In this document: positions 7,999-18,665 of the stretch, in pieces
Layout of the letters: every line of letters starts with the position of its first letter
How positions within the stretch are numbered: position 1 is the first letter of the stretch
From: Ardenticatenaceae bacterium
Lineage (GTDB): Bacteria > Chloroflexota > Anaerolineae > Ardenticatenales > Ardenticatenaceae
Length of the DNA stretch: 32,890 nucleotides
Reading direction: 5' to 3'
Assembly: GCA_026989095.1 (NCBI GenBank)
Contig: JALSKA010000013.1
Span: 1-32,890 of the forward strand
The notes under the pieces: generated by a model
What the model was told of the DNA's origin: nothing
The model's database searches: none
What the model saw: only the letters and a program-made list of their open reading frames with translations
Translations under genes and position numbers: made by a program

Positions 7999-10752
7999 CT
8001 AGCCCGTGTTGCGCAGGCCGGCCGCCACCCCGTTCACCGAGAGAAGTACCGCCTGTTGGAGCCCTTCGGCCTCGTCGGGCGGAGGAGTGTCACGCAGCCG
8101 GCGCAGCAGGGCCACTTGGATGTAGTTGAGCGGGTCCACGTAAGGGTTGCGCAGCCGGATGCTGCGCTGGAGCCACGGCTCGTTGTCCAACAAGTCCCGG
8201 TAACCGGTGACGAGCAGGATCATGCGCTCCGTGCGCGCGTACTCGGCCCGCACGGCCTCGAAGACCGTGCGGCGCACTTCCTCGTCCGCCAGGGTGGCGT
8301 AGAGGGTGGCGATGGCCATGTCCGCCTTGCGGAGGCTCATCTGGGCGTTGTCGATGACAGTGCGGAAGAAGGGCCACTCCTGGTACATGGTTTGCAGGCT
8401 GGCCACGCGCTGCTCGAGGGCCTCGGCGGCCCAGCTCTCCAGGGCGTAGCCCAGGCCGTACCACCCTGGCAAGTTCACGCGGGACTGGGTCCACGCGAAG
8501 ACCCACGGGATGGCCCGCAAGTCGTCGATGCCGGCCGTGGGCCGGCGCCGGGCAGGCCGCGAGCCGATGTTGAGTCGGGCGATGTGGTCAATTGGCGTGG
8601 CCTGGTGAAAGTAGCGCAGGAAGAGAGGGTGTTCCACCAATTCCCGGTAGGCGGTGTACGCGCGGGCGGCCAGCTCGTCCATGATGGCGGCCCACTCCTC
8701 CTCCTGCGGAAAGGTCGGGCGTCGCCCGCTGGTGAGCAGCACAGCGTGCAGGACTTGCTCCAAGTGGCGGTGGGCGATGGCCGGGTTGGCGTAACGCTCG
8801 CTGATGACTTCCCCCTGTTCGGTGAGCCGAATGCGGCCCCGGACCGACTCAGGCGGCTGGGCCAGGATGGCCCGGTTGGCCGGCCCGCCGCCGCGCCCCA
8901 CGGTGCCCCCGCGGCCGTGGAAGAGGGTCAGCTCGATCCCGTGGGCGTCGCAGACGTGGGCCAGGGTCCGCTGGGCCTTGTAGAGCTCCCAATTGGCGGC
9001 CAAGAAGCCCCCGTCCTTGTTGGAGTCACTGTAGCCGATCATCACCTGCTGGGCGTTCCCCCGGAGGGCCAAGTGGCGCCGGTACGTGGGATGGTTGAAA
9101 AGCGCGCCCATGATGCGGGGGGCAGCGTGTAAGTCCTCAATGGTCTCGAAGAGGGGCACGATGTCCAGCCGGCCGAAAAGGCCGGCGTCCCGGGCCAGGA
9201 GGAGCACTTCTAACACGTGGCTCACGCCGGTGGTCATGCTGATAATGTAGGTCTGGATGGCCTCAGGGGCTACGTGTTCCTGAGCGCGGCGAATCAGGCG
9301 GAAGACAGCCACCGTCTCGTTGGTCGCCTGGCTGAAGTCGAGCTGGGCTGTCAGGGGCCTGGGGCTCTCGATCTCCCGCGAGAGGAGATCGAGCTTGGCC
9401 TCCTCAGGAAGGCCGGCGTAGTCGTCGGCCAGGCGATACCGGGCGAAGATCTCGGCCAGGGCACGGGTGTGCCGTTCCGAGTGTTGGCGCACGTCCAACG
9501 TGGCCAGGTGGAAGCCGAAGACCTCCACGCGGCGGATGAGGCGGGCCAACTGGCCTTCGGCCAGCGCCTCGCCCCGGTGACGGCGCAGGCTCTCCTGAAT
9601 CAGGCGCAGGTCGTGCAGGAAGGTCGCCGCGTCGGGGTAGGCGTGGGGGGGCAGGTGGTCGTGCTCCCAGAGGTGCTCGCTGGCGTGGTAGGTGGCCACC
9701 AGCCGGCGGTGCATGAGGGCGAGCTTTTGCCGGTACGGCTCCAGCCGGAAACGGCGCATGATCTCCTCACATTCCCCGTCGTCGAAGAGCGCGACATCGG
9801 CCTCGATGCTCGCCAGCAGGTCGCCGGAGAAGCCCACGCGCGTGCGGGCCATGCTCAACAGGCCGTGAAGGGCCTCCACCTCCTGCATGTAGAGCTGGAG
9901 GATCAGCCCCTTCTGCTCGCGCAGGGCCTGTTCGGTCACCTCGGGCGTCACGAAGGGATTACCGTCCCGATCTCCCCCCATCCACGAGCCGAAGCGCAGG
10001 AAGGGCGGAACGTGAAACGACTCGCCCGGGAAGGCGGCCTCCAGCGCGCGGTGCACCTCCTCGTAAATTTGAGGAATCACGTCGAACAGGGTAGTCTCGA
10101 AGTAGTAGAGCCCATTGCGCACCTCGTCCATGACCGTGGGCGGGCGGTCGCGCGTTTCGTCCGTCTGCCAGAGGGCCACGATGTGCTCCCGAATGGAGCG
10201 CACGATCTCGGCCTCCTCCTCTGGGAGCAGGTCGTGCAGGTCCAAATCGTGGAGGGCGTCGGCAATGGCCTTGAGCTTGACGAGCACGCTGCGGCGTTTG
10301 GCCTCCGTGGGGTGGGCCGTGAAGACGGGCATCACGTAGAGGCGTTCCAGCAGCTCGCGGAGTTCGTCGGCGCTCACCCCCTCGGCGCGCAGACGGTGGA
10401 TGGCCTCGGCCACGGTCTCGCTCATGGGGTGGCCTTGCTGGGCGGCGAGGCGAGCCCGTTGGCGCAACACGCGCACCCGCTGCTGTTCTTCGGCCAAGTT
10501 GACGAGCTGGAAGTAGGTGGTGAAGGCCTTGAGGATGGCCAGCGTGCGGGGCAAGTCCTGCACGAGGCTCTCGGCCAAGGCGGCCACCTGGCGGCCGGCA
10601 GCCTCGTCGCCGGCGCGGTGGGCCTTGGTGAGCCCGCGAATCTTCTCCTCCAGGTCGAACACCTCGCGGCCTTCCTGCTCGATGATGATCTCGCCCAACA
10701 GGTCGCCCAACAAATGGATGGTCTGGCTCAACCGGCGTTGCAACTCGTCCAA
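7999..10752 (-). CDS. ppc: Phosphoenolpyruvate carboxylase
   Basis: A 917-residue bacterial-type PEP carboxylase, which adds bicarbonate to PEP to give oxaloacetate (anaplerosis, or a C4 step in autotrophy). Recognised signatures are [12 protein letters not shown] with the catalytic His (residue 147 in this numbering), [11 protein letters not shown], the [12 protein letters not shown] loop, [22 protein letters not shown], and the C-terminal [11 protein letters not shown] that forms part of the active and effector sites. The length fits the family (about 880-960). I chose the TTG at 10752 because AGGAGG sits seven bases upstream; the 26 codons before it lack homology-like sequence. The alpha/beta hydrolase follows immediately. 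The oxaloacetate made here can feed aspartate and the threonine genes further right. Confidence 0.97.
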
Positions 10753-14666: not shown

Positions 14667-15395
14667 CTACTCGAGCGTCTGTCCCGGCTCCAGGGCGTAG
14701 ATCTGGAGTCCGTCAATGTCGGCCGTCAACTCGCGCAGCTTGTCGGGCGTGCCGGTCAGGAGGGGGAACGTGCCGAAGTGCATGGGGACAACGGCCTTGG
14801 CGTTCAGCAGGCGGATGGCCTTGGCGGCCTCCTGGGGGGACATGGTGAAGTGATCGCCGATGGGCAGGAGGCAGAGATCGGGCTGGTAGAGCTCGCCGAT
14901 GAGAGCCATGTCCCCGAAGACGGCCGTGTCGCCGGCGTGGTAGACCTTGTAGCCGTTCTCGAACTCGATCACGTAGCCGGCCGCCTCGCCGCCGTAGATG
15001 ATCTGGTCCCCGTCCAGAATGCCACAGGAGTGGACTGCGTGGGTCATGGTGACCCGAATGCCCGCCACGTCCACAGTCCCGCCTTTGTTCATGGGGATGC
15101 ACTTCTCCTCGGCCACGCCCTTCTTCTGCAGCCAGTTGATGAGCTCGAAGATGCCCACCACTGTGCAGCCGGTGGCCCTGGCAATGGGAGGCGCGTCGCC
15201 GATGTGGTCGAAGTGACCGTGGGTGCAGAGCATCACGTCGAGGGCTTGGATGCCCCCCTGTTTGAACCGGTCGGGGCAGGCGGGATTGCCATCAACCCAG
15301 GGGTCGATCAGGATGCGCGTGCCGTTGGGGCTCTCGACGAGGAACGTGGCGTGGCCTAACCAAGTCAGCTTGATGCCGGCGTTGAGCGTGCTCAT
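14667..15395 (-). CDS. UPF0173-type metal-dependent hydrolase (metallo-beta-lactamase fold)
   Basis: A 242-residue protein matching the UPF0173/YtkL family of metallo-beta-lactamase-fold hydrolases. The metal motif THGHFDHIGD gives His59, His61, Asp63 and His64; HAVHSCG, YHAGDTAVFGD and PMHFGTFPLL supply the remaining ligands. The start LTWLGHATFLVE is the usual family opening. Substrates of this family are mostly unestablished. The ATG at 15395 has AAGGAGG a few bases upstream, and a promoter is visible at 15478-15505. Confidence 0.92.
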   Translation of the reverse strand: MSTLNAGIKLTWLGHATFLVESPNGTRILIDPWVDGNPACPDRFKQGGIQALDVMLCTHGHFDHIGDAPPIARATGCTVVGIFELINWLQKKGVAEEKCIPMNKGGTVDVAGIRVTMTHAVHSCGILDGDQIIYGGEAAGYVIEFENGYKVYHAGDTAVFGDMALIGELYQPDLCLLPIGDHFTMSPQEAAKAIRLLNAKAVVPMHFGTFPLLTGTPDKLRELTADIDGLQIYALEPGQTLE

Positions 15396-15477
15396 GGCTC
15401 CCTCCTTCTCTCGTGCTGTACCTCTTCGTACCGGCCCGAACGTGGGACGGCCTTGGCCCGGCCAACGTGTTGTCTGG

Positions 15478-15505
15478 AGTATATCCGAACCGTTCCCCTC
15501 GGCAA
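15478..15505 (-). promoter_or_regulatory. Promoter for the UPF0173 hydrolase gene
   Basis: On the minus strand TTGCCG (15505-15500), 16 bases, then TATACT (15483-15478), about 80 bases before the start codon. It ends just before the 3' end of the putative nuclease gene, so it marks the left limit of the AT-richer insertion. Confidence 0.5.
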
Positions 15506-15522
15506 GTGGGGACCCCCGGCGC

Positions 15523-16131
15523 TCAGCTCACCAAATCCTGGAACCGGATGGACCACATGACGGGGGGGCGATTGGGGAAGGCTCGTAGACGCACACGAAA
15601 GGCTACGTCCTTGACCTGGCATAAAGGTACTTGGCCTAAGGAAAAGCGACCTGGATGTCGTGGTCGGTGTATGGCGTGTCCGGCAAATTGAAACAACACG
15701 ATTACGCCCACAATACTGTGGGCACGCAGAGTTTGGAGGTCTTGGGCGTCAATGTGCAGATCATTTAACCACCTATCGTGGTGCTCGTCCCCATGAGCGC
15801 GATGTGTGCAATTCTGGTCGTGACATCCTGCACACCGACAGGCCGGCCGAAAATGCCAAATAGCGCTCAAAATCTGCCATCTAGCCTTGAAGAGTTGAGC
15901 GCTCAGCGCGCTCCTGTTGTGAAATGATTTCATCTCCACAATAGCGACAACCCAGCTTCGGCCAACTTGCCCAACAGCAACCCCATCAGGTAATGGGGCG
16001 TGCTCCCAAGGTGGTGCTCGACGGCCGTCGAGTTGAAAAACCCACTGTGCTTCTTGTATTTCAAGAACATACTGGGGATTGTGCTCGCGAATGGTGTTAT
16101 CGTTTGACAGATATGGGTTAAGGTAATCCAT
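15523..16131 (-). CDS. Putative PD-(D/E)XK nuclease with Cys/His cluster, partner of the ATPase
   Basis: I do not recognise a named family. The called start (ATG 16131) has GGGAG six bases upstream; an in-frame ATG at 16152 overlaps the ATPase stop as ATGATG, so the product is 202 or 209 residues and translation is coupled either way. A hydrophobic strand, WVVAIVEMKSF, ends in Glu-Met-Lys; with Pro-Asp 17-18 residues before the Glu this gives PD-x(16)-E-x-K, the core of PD-(D/E)XK nucleases. A helix with Gln (RWQIL) follows, also usual for that fold. Next comes a cluster CRCAGCHDQNC plus several His, a possible zinc site. The C-terminal third (SIVGVIVLFQFAG) looks like a core strand. An HNH-type reading of the Cys/His part is possible but weaker. 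Nuclease activity is inferred. Confidence 0.7.
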   Translation of the reverse strand: MDYLNPYLSNDNTIREHNPQYVLEIQEAQWVFQLDGRRAPPWEHAPLPDGVAVGQVGRSWVVAIVEMKSFHNRSALSAQLFKARWQILSAIWHFRPACRCAGCHDQNCTHRAHGDEHHDRWLNDLHIDAQDLQTLRAHSIVGVIVLFQFAGHAIHRPRHPGRFSLGQVPLCQVKDVAFRVRLRAFPNRPPVMWSIRFQDLVS

Positions 16132-16148
16132 GTTGATCTCCCGCAACA

Positions 16149-17381
16149 TCATGTTGACACTTCAGCATTGAACCACAAATTATAAAGTTCTTCTCCCATT
16201 GCATCGGCTACATCGCCGAGTTTGGTTTCGTCCACAAATCCAGTCTTGTGGTCCATAATATTATGGATCTTTCCGTTAACAAACATATATACAGCAACTA
16301 TATCTGGGGAAATTGCACTAAACTTATCTTCAGTGGAATTCAAAGAGCCCCGAAGTTGAAGCTGATAGCGTTGAAGGGCAAGGTTAATTGTGCGCAAGAT
16401 AAGCAATGAGTGAGTTGTGACAAGTACGGGGAACCCCTCATTGACCATGTAGAGGAGAGATTCCGTGAGCAGGCGCTGCGCTTTAGGATGAAGGTGAAGT
16501 TCCGGTTCTTCTACGTGGAAGGCAAGTAATGACGGGGAAAAAGTTTGGTGTTCCTTATTCGCGAGCAGAGTAAAGATGAGGGCTTGGAACAAAGGCCAGC
16601 CTGCCATCTGCCCCGATGACGCCATCTCTATCTCAAAAGCTCTTTGATTCTCCACAACCCATTGCCACATATTCGCAAACCGTCCTCGCCTTTCATATCG
16701 AATAGCACCTGATAGTGCTTCGGTCATACGCTGCCAGATTCGTTGAGCCCCCTCAGGCCACTTGGCATGCTCACTCAGTTCCCACATATGTTCGGCAGCC
16801 TGAAGGAGTTCTGAAAACTCTCTCATCGTGATAGGCAGGGCTTCATGGTAGAGCATTCCCCGGGCGAAGTTAATAAATCTCGAGAAGTAGGTACGCTCGG
16901 CGGGGATAAAGATTGCACGGCGCTTCGCTTTGGCACGCCACAGATCGCCTTGCTCGAGCCATGTCTTCAACGTAGATGACCAAGGAGCTAGCGGCTGAAT
17001 TTTGCGCGTCTTGGGGTTCATGGAGAAAGATAACCGGCTCGTGCCATCTTCCCAAATAACGTTGTGTGTGTGTTCTAAGAAGGCGTTCGCTAAGGCACGA
17101 CGGCCGGAGCGCAATCGTTCGATAACAGAACGGAGCAATGTCTCAGGGGCTCCTACCTCACCGTAATGAGCAAGTAGGTATTCCCAATTGCGGAAGAAGT
17201 AAATGAGTTGGGTAATCCACGACTTTCCGGTGCCTTGGGGACCAATGAAAACGGTCAGCGGCAAAATCGTCACCGTCTGTGGTGAATCCAAAGGCCCAAA
17301 GCGACTCCGTGTAATTCCCTTTGATGATGGCCGAAAGCTAAGCAAGGTTTTATCATTGACTATCTGTGCTCCCTGTTCCAC
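16149..17381 (-). CDS. OLD/RecF-like AAA ATPase (ABC-type), without TOPRIM
   Basis: A 410-residue ATPase. Visible motifs: Walker A GPQGTGKS (47-54) after a strand ILPLTVFI, an IPAER element (about 160), an ABC signature-like SSGQM (255-259), Walker B LLAFHVEEPELHLHP with Glu291/Glu292, and the H-loop TTHS (His324). This order is that of OLD/RecF/AAA_15-type overcoming-defect ATPases, which act as DNA- or effector-sensing engines in several phage-defence systems. No C-terminal TOPRIM nuclease is present; about 85 residues follow the H-loop. I chose the GTG at 17381 because GGGAGG lies six bases upstream; another GTG at 17417 has no ribosome site. The stop overlaps the start of the nuclease-like gene. 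Base composition is clearly lower in G+C than the neighbours. Confidence 0.88.
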   Translation of the reverse strand: MEQGAQIVNDKTLLSFRPSSKGITRSRFGPLDSPQTVTILPLTVFIGPQGTGKSWITQLIYFFRNWEYLLAHYGEVGAPETLLRSVIERLRSGRRALANAFLEHTHNVIWEDGTSRLSFSMNPKTRKIQPLAPWSSTLKTWLEQGDLWRAKAKRRAIFIPAERTYFSRFINFARGMLYHEALPITMREFSELLQAAEHMWELSEHAKWPEGAQRIWQRMTEALSGAIRYERRGRFANMWQWVVENQRAFEIEMASSGQMAGWPLFQALIFTLLANKEHQTFSPSLLAFHVEEPELHLHPKAQRLLTESLLYMVNEGFPVLVTTHSLLILRTINLALQRYQLQLRGSLNSTEDKFSAISPDIVAVYMFVNGKIHNIMDHKTGFVDETKLGDVADAMGEELYNLWFNAEVST

Positions 17382-17455
17382 ACTTTGCCTCCCTATGCTG
17401 CCTGATTGATCTGGCACCTTGAAACCCGAGACTCCTGCTGAAAGTATTTGTTCGT

Positions 17456-17484
17456 AGTATAGGAGAAAATATCGAAGAACACAA
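17456..17484 (-). promoter_or_regulatory. Promoter for the ATPase-nuclease operon
   Basis: On the minus strand TTGTGT (17484-17479), 17 bases, TATACT (17461-17456), giving a leader of about 70 bases before the GTG at 17381. It follows the hom terminator, so the pair is an independent transcription unit. Confidence 0.5.
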
Positions 17485-17512
17485 CTTGTACACGTATTTC
17501 GGTGAAGGAAGC

Positions 17513-17540
17513 AAAAAAGAGAGGGCCCTCAAGCCCCTCT
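17513..17540 (-). terminator. Intrinsic terminator of the thrC-lysC-hom operon
   Basis: On the minus strand AGAGGG (17540-17535) pairs with CCCTCT (17525-17520) around a nine-base loop, followed by C and six T (17518-17513). It starts about 50 bases after the hom stop. Confidence 0.8.
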
Positions 17541-17588
17541 TGTAGTTTTGGCAAACAAAGTTACAGTTTCCTCATTCTCGAAAGGTCC

Positions 17589-18665
17589 TCACACAAGGGC
17601 CAACAAGTCGGCCAGGAGGGCGCTTGCCGTGACCGTGGCCCCGGCTCCCGGCCCTCGAATGACCAACGGGCGAGGCGTATAGCGCTCGGTCTCGAAGAGG
17701 ATCAGGTTGTCGGGCCCCTGAAGCCCTCCCAGAGGCCCATCTCGGGGGACGTGGGCCACGCCCACGCGGAGCTCGTCGGGCGTGACGGTGGCCACGTAGC
17801 GCAGGGTGTGGCCTGTGGCCTCCGCCTGTTGGAAACGTTGGGCCATCGCGTCATCCACGGCTTCCAGGGCCACGAGCACCTCTTCCACGCTGGCGTCCGC
17901 TGGTGTGGGCGGCGCGAGGGATTCCACGTGGACGTGGGCCAGCTCCCGCTCGAGGCCCATGGTGCGGGCCAGGATGAGTGCCTTGCGGGCCACGTCGAGG
18001 CCGTTCAGGTCGTCGCGCGGATCGGGCTCGGTGTACCCGAGCTCCACAGCCCGGCGCACGGCCTGCGAGAAGGCCAGGCCCCCTTCCAAGTGGCTCATGA
18101 TGAAGCCCAGGGTGCCGCTCAGCGCCCCCCGGATGGCGCGCACCACATCGCCGGTGTCGAGCAGCATCTGGAGCGTGCGGATCACGGGCAGGCCGGCGCC
18201 CACTGTGGCCTCGTATCCCAGTGGGCCTGAGGTGAGCCGGCGAAATGTGGCCATGTCGGCCGTGAGGGGCTTCTTGTTGGCCAGCACGATGCCATAGCCC
18301 AGCTCCTGAGCGCGCCAGAACGCGGGGCCAATGGCCGTCACCTCGGCGGCGGTGGCATCCACCACCAGCGTCTCGCTCCGGCCGGCCACGTCCACGATGG
18401 CGGCGAGGTTCTCCTGGTGGTAGCCGCGCGGGTGTTCGGCCAGCCGGCTCCCCGCCGCTTTCAGGCGACATAGCTCGCGCAGCAGGGGTTCACTCAGCGG
18501 AGGGGCGCCCGGCTCGGCAATGACGGCGCCGTCGCGGTCGGCCAGTGCCACGTACTCGAAGGCAATGCCCCGTTGGGCGAGCCGGCCCCGCACGTCCAAG
18601 ATCATCTCCACCAGGGCGCGTCCTACCTGGCCGACGCCAAATTGGATCAGTGCCACGGTGCGCAC
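17589..18665 (-). CDS. hom: Homoserine dehydrogenase
   Basis: A 358-residue enzyme that reduces aspartate semialdehyde to homoserine with NAD(P)H in threonine and methionine synthesis. The N-terminal Rossmann loop is FGVGQVGR; ANKKPLT and the substrate-side GALSGTLGFI and PRDDLNGLDVARK follow, the last being the family signature region. It ends with the Gly-rich GPGAGATVTASALLADL. There is no C-terminal ACT domain, so it is the short, probably not threonine-inhibited form. The GTG at 18665 is preceded by GGAGG with a six-base gap. The gene lies 16 bases after the lysC stop and ends the operon before a strong terminator. Confidence 0.94.
   Translation of the reverse strand: MRTVALIQFGVGQVGRALVEMILDVRGRLAQRGIAFEYVALADRDGAVIAEPGAPPLSEPLLRELCRLKAAGSRLAEHPRGYHQENLAAIVDVAGRSETLVVDATAAEVTAIGPAFWRAQELGYGIVLANKKPLTADMATFRRLTSGPLGYEATVGAGLPVIRTLQMLLDTGDVVRAIRGALSGTLGFIMSHLEGGLAFSQAVRRAVELGYTEPDPRDDLNGLDVARKALILARTMGLERELAHVHVESLAPPTPADASVEEVLVALEAVDDAMAQRFQQAEATGHTLRYVATVTPDELRVGVAHVPRDGPLGGLQGPDNLILFETERYTPRPLVIRGPGAGATVTASALLADLLALV

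Follow-up and report, generated by a model that had tools for sequence, protein, structure and literature searches.

The window analysed here, a stretch of 32,890 nt from an Ardenticatenaceae bacterium (contig JALSKA010000013.1), carries on its minus strand a two-gene pair formed by an OLD/RecF-type ABC ATPase (protein A) and a small PD-(D/E)XK-like nuclease (protein B). The pair is real and conserved and very likely has a defensive function. On the whole of the analysis, we regard it with good confidence as an anti-phage module of WonAB type that was acquired horizontally and in which A would act as sensor or gatekeeper and B as nuclease effector. The novelty lies in the branch and not in the architecture, the pair belonging to a diverged sister branch of the WonAB-type systems.

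Organisation of the locus

Gene A (nt 16149–17381, minus strand, 410 aa) is followed by gene B (nt 15523–16152, minus strand, 209 aa), and the TGA stop codon of the former shares bases with the ATG start codon of the latter (ACATGATG), giving a 4-nt ATGA overlap visible in the sequence itself (nt 16149–16152, minus strand) and bearing out the coupling of the two genes claimed in a preliminary description of this DNA. Many relatives likewise show an offset of −3 or a brief overlap between A and B. The longest ORF for gene A opens at an alternative GTG at nt 17417, which would yield 422 aa; the preferred start is the GTG at nt 17381, and a Shine-Dalgarno-like AGGGAGG (nt 17388–17394, minus strand) is seen 6 nt upstream of it.

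The ATPase

All the ATPase elements attributed to protein A in the preliminary description are present on the minus strand in the order typical of OLD/RecF proteins, namely the Walker A GPQGTGKS (nt 17220–17243), the IPAER element (nt 16893–16907), the OLD-type signature ASSGQM (SSGQM, nt 16605–16619), the Walker B ending in HVEE and continuing as HVEEPE (nt 16506–16526) and the H-loop TTHS (nt 16407–16418). Across 32 relatives, invariant residues were found in each of them: G, Q, G, K and S in Walker A, the Arg of IPAER, G and Q of the signature, EEPE in Walker B, and T, H and S in the H-loop. The IPAER Arg would match in position the Arg mutated in WonA (R182A). Protein A thus carries the full motif set of an OLD-type ABC ATPase (Walker A, the signature, Walker B and the H-loop, together with the conserved Arg), and it has no TOPRIM domain, as originally proposed, since only about 85 aa remain beyond the H-loop, where the model shows a short C-terminal extension only.

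Profile searches agreed with this assignment, with Pfam matches to AAA_15 (2.4e-14) and AAA_21 (4.3e-12) and motif-level matches to many OLD-type defence ATPases in PADLOC, including the PD-T4-4_A model (4.2e-15, mostly over the Walker B/H-loop region) and PDC-M29A (3.5e-14). The predicted structure (pLDDT 91) found its best PDB folds in PtuA of Septu and retron systems (E 7e-10).

The nuclease-like partner

The PD-x(16)-E-M-K motif reported for the second protein was retrieved exactly, as P55-D56-x16-E73-M74-K75, with P55-D56 encoded at nt 15985–15990 and E73-M74-K75 at nt 15928–15936 (minus strand). When 38 B proteins were aligned, the most conserved columns, start Met aside, were D56 (D in 37/38, E in the remaining one), E73 (36/38) and Q93 (36/38; nt 15874–15876, minus strand), whereas the position of K75 was occupied by K in 26, R in 8, E in 3 and T in 1. 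An Asp followed by ExK and by a Gln in the next helix is the pattern expected in PD-(D/E)XK nucleases, and it emerged from the alignment unprompted. The ExK site reads E-L-E, D-L-H or E-L-T in the B proteins of loci L061, L066, L068, L055 and L062; judging from their sequences, catalysis in these proteins may have been lost or moved.

A confident alpha/beta model was obtained for protein B with AlphaFold (mean pLDDT 82, pTM 0.81), where D56 precedes a strand (57–63), E73 and K75 lie in the next one (66–77), Q93 sits in the helix past the ExK strand (80–101), and a further strand follows (145–156). Library and fold searches were negative for window B: no match was found among Pfam, PADLOC or NCBIfam models, nothing meaningful was retrieved with the B profile from PDB sequences, and Foldseek gave no significant PDB match (best E 0.16) and nothing below E 0.09 against PDB and viral models together. 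Members of the superfamily were among the top fold matches, none significant by itself, namely McrC, HamA, FokI and cap-snatching endonucleases, with low TM-scores, and herpesvirus UL24. As individual fold matches are non-significant, the assignment of B to the PD-(D/E)XK fold rests on motif, family conservation and secondary-structure order, to which a profile match with WonB-like proteins (see below) is added.

A further motif, G121-x2-H124-H125 (nt 15778–15792, minus strand), is invariant together with H145 (nt 15718–15720, minus strand) in 16/16 sequences of the window's part of the family and is absent from the B proteins of the WonB-like clade.

Co-occurrence, phylogeny and gene decay

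Relatives were gathered by the ATPase alone, which added 80 loci, and the frame downstream of A was then read in each; L036, L076 and L083, where the contig ends or the downstream region is unclear, were left out of the pairing counts. B adjoined A in 33/37 assessable loci of the window's clade, mostly overlapping or no more than 10 nt apart, and in 22/22 of its sister clade, so the co-occurrence on which the first interpretation depended is confirmed. The four exceptions, all in the window's clade, are B remnants in L038 and L041 and the lack of B in L047 and L073. In L038 (5914–7422) the tail of B is fused to the ATPase, and in L041 (4714–5090) B is internally shortened and its motif is gone while the ATPase frame is kept. 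One B counted among the 33 (L063, 2377–2826) contains a single in-frame stop, the ATPase frame again being kept. Conversely, B without A was not found in 400 genomes of the phylum (E 0.001).

The distribution of A is patchy, with strong matches in 5/400 phylum genomes. Full-length relatives at 31–49% identity, several per genome, were retrieved when whole genomes were searched with A. As many as four diverged full-length ATPases were counted in a single genome and three in a second (G001 and G005), most of them followed by a different nuclease subtype.

The tree of A (58 rows) was split into two fully supported clades, one of 36 rows that includes the window and spans Chloroflexota, Cyanobacteriota, Myxococcota, Thermodesulfobacteriota and WOR-3, the other of 22 rows from Bacteroidota, Verrucomicrobiota, Cyanobacteriota, Pseudomonadota and others. 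In the latter, the key residues of A are spaced as Lys 33–34, Arg ~180, Glu ~300 and His ~333, and the B proteins are mostly 134–163 aa. Since this spacing and size fit WonA (K34, R182, E300, H333) and WonB (16.1 kDa, K71) as printed (PMC12137116), the 22-row clade is probably that of WonAB itself. Several of its B proteins match the PADLOC model PDC-M29B (1.9e-10 to 6.8e-6), a match shared neither by window B nor by the cyanobacterial B proteins embedded in Hma loci. The B profiles of the two clades matched each other with 95% probability (E 1.8e-8) and with their catalytic residues aligned.

Distances among A proteins co-varied with those among their B partners (Mantel r 0.70, p 2e-4, with r 0.70 also inside the window's clade), a correlation that fits co-evolution and shared descent alike; the pair is therefore inherited as a unit.

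Genomic context

GC content is 48–50% over the A-B pair (15001–18000 of the window), against 65–70% (about 68%) across most of the contig. The pair lies between the genes of homoserine dehydrogenase (hom) and a UPF0173 hydrolase, which do not adjoin in the sister genomes in which the two could be located; the junction in the window therefore represents a rearrangement point. The window pair is thus a recent arrival or marks such a point and, on the basis of low GC and of the synteny breakpoint, A-B looks horizontally mobile. Searches with A gave no match among viral contigs or plasmids and one partial match among phages, on an unannotated contig.

Known or candidate defence genes were found around A-B in a handful of loci, and these counts are small. 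The pair is placed between HmaA and HmaB in L042 and L044 and upstream of, and near, HmaC in L066, Hma being a candidate defence system (PMC8565338). It is also found between cas3e and cas8e in L056 and beside cas1b in L063, and a pair of the sister clade is located between HsdS and HsdR of a type I restriction-modification (R-M) operon in L093. Embedding of defence inside defence is a published theme (Payne 2024, cited in PMC12137116). The defensive role put forward at the outset gains support from this context.

The CRISPR-Cas operon of L056 contains, downstream of cas8e, a second OLD-like ATPase frame (8621–9868), followed by a frame with WDYGFGY...VAVWVEVHPA; this is possibly another pair of an ATPase and a nuclease-like protein.

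Comparison with known systems

WonAB, from the Vibrio cholerae WASA-1 prophage (Nat Microbiol 2025), consists of an OLD-ABC ATPase and a PD-(D/E)xK nuclease (PMC12137116). Defence depends on the two genes and on the active site of each, being abolished when the ATP sites of A or the Lys of B are mutated (PMC12137116). Infection is abortive, translation being arrested, and WonB is toxic only if WonA is present (PMC12137116; PMC12409358). Its authors connect the system with PD-T4-4 and with the class that Krishnan et al. 2020 described as 'OLD-ABC ATPase + novel REase' (PMC12137116). PD-T4-4 is a two-gene system of E. coli with an ATPase (PF13175) and a PD-(D/E)XK nuclease (PMC9519451, PMC10952713).

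Compared with WonAB through its published description, the window pair is WonAB-like in anatomy, being a two-gene operon where a TOPRIM-less OLD-type ABC ATPase with the same motifs precedes a small PD-(D/E)xK protein. It differs in that its ATPase falls in the 36-row clade, apart from the 22-row clade of WonAB-fitting proportions, in that protein B (209 aa, ~23 kDa) exceeds the ~16 kDa of a WonB-sized effector (16.1 kDa), and in the extra G121-x2-H124-H125...H145 motif, not shared with the WonB-like set. The pairing of ATPase and PD-(D/E)XK protein and the PD-T4-4_A match are in common with PD-T4-4, but window B does not match PD-T4-4_B in PADLOC; likewise, the PADLOC candidate PDC-M29 is matched by window A (PDC-M29A) and by sister-clade B proteins (PDC-M29B) but not by window B.

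With Septu the pair shares a PtuA-like ATPase fold and a separate nuclease gene; this assignment was rejected, as PtuB is an HNH nuclease while window B has D...ExK and no HNH model match. OLD-type ATPase motifs are also shared with Gabija GajA, OLD and PARIS, which were rejected too, a TOPRIM domain or partner being present there, while A lacks a TOPRIM and B is not one by model or motif. The preliminary description was therefore right in separating the pair from Septu, Gabija and PARIS, whose nuclease type differs. Its proposal of a candidate undescribed system could not be maintained, since the combination of an OLD-ABC ATPase and a PD-(D/E)xK nuclease is already published as WonAB, PD-T4-4 and the Krishnan 2020 class (PMC12137116, PMC12409358, PMC9519451, PMC10952713).

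Proposed function and alternative explanations

In the mechanism we propose, protein A would dimerise on ATP and serve as sensor and gatekeeper, and protein B, made in step with A, would be the putative nuclease effector. Once infection is sensed, A would license B to cut nucleic acid, either RNA such as tRNA or rRNA, by analogy with WonAB, or DNA, and cleavage would stop phage multiplication, probably by abortive infection.

A resident role in the host is the alternative most directly raised by gene order, with A bringing the nuclease to nucleic acid that is damaged or stalled, as part of genome maintenance or RNA processing. In Chloroflexota, three genomes (L052, L054, L060) have A-B ahead of murC in the dcw cell-wall cluster, a fourth has it at the corresponding place, where the contig ends after B (L051), and in a fifth a solo ATPase occupies the cluster (L073). 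The order asnS-A-B, with the same further genes behind, is shared by two Ardenticatenaceae genera (L053, L067), with further copies placed between clpC and frr (L050) and after cmk (L069). The same housekeeping place in different genera is unusual for a defence gene. However, the pair is missing from most genomes of the phylum (strong matches in 5/400), several divergent copies occur in one genome, and Hma, CRISPR-Cas and R-M loci contain relatives of it, besides the low GC in the window; a resident role is accordingly considered unlikely.

The variant ExK sites of the five loci mentioned above would suit a B protein that has become a structural or binding partner, with cutting lost in the window lineage; but window B keeps D56, E73, K75 and Q93, and D, E and Q are the best conserved positions of the family, so this reading is given very little weight. 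Even less probable, in our judgement, is a selfish addiction module of toxin-antitoxin type, where a toxic nuclease B would be restrained by A and kept for its own persistence. The tight A-B overlap, the multi-copy carriage and the deletion, shortening or interruption by a stop of B while A stays (L038, L041, L063, L073) are compatible with it. On the other hand, an antitoxin model was tested and rejected for WonAB, as the toxicity of WonB needs WonA (PMC12137116), and because A without B persists at some loci, A is not merely an antidote.

Within the preferred reading of an anti-phage module, it is conceivable, though rather doubtful, that the branch of Chloroflexota and Cyanobacteria is a system apart, with an effector chemistry particular to it, and that it has settled in housekeeping operons and also within those of Hma and cas as a built-in second line of defence.

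The window's nuclease family is missed by every library searched (Pfam, NCBIfam and PADLOC), and its recognition extends the WonAB-type defences of ATPase and nuclease to Chloroflexota, Cyanobacteria, Myxococcota and WOR-3. Ready test sets are offered by natural pairs whose ExK sites vary, by pairs set within Hma or cas operons, and by ATPases that stand alone. If the branch is indeed a distinct system, protein B, with its extra G-x2-HH...H site and larger C-terminal part, may cut a target other than that of WonB.
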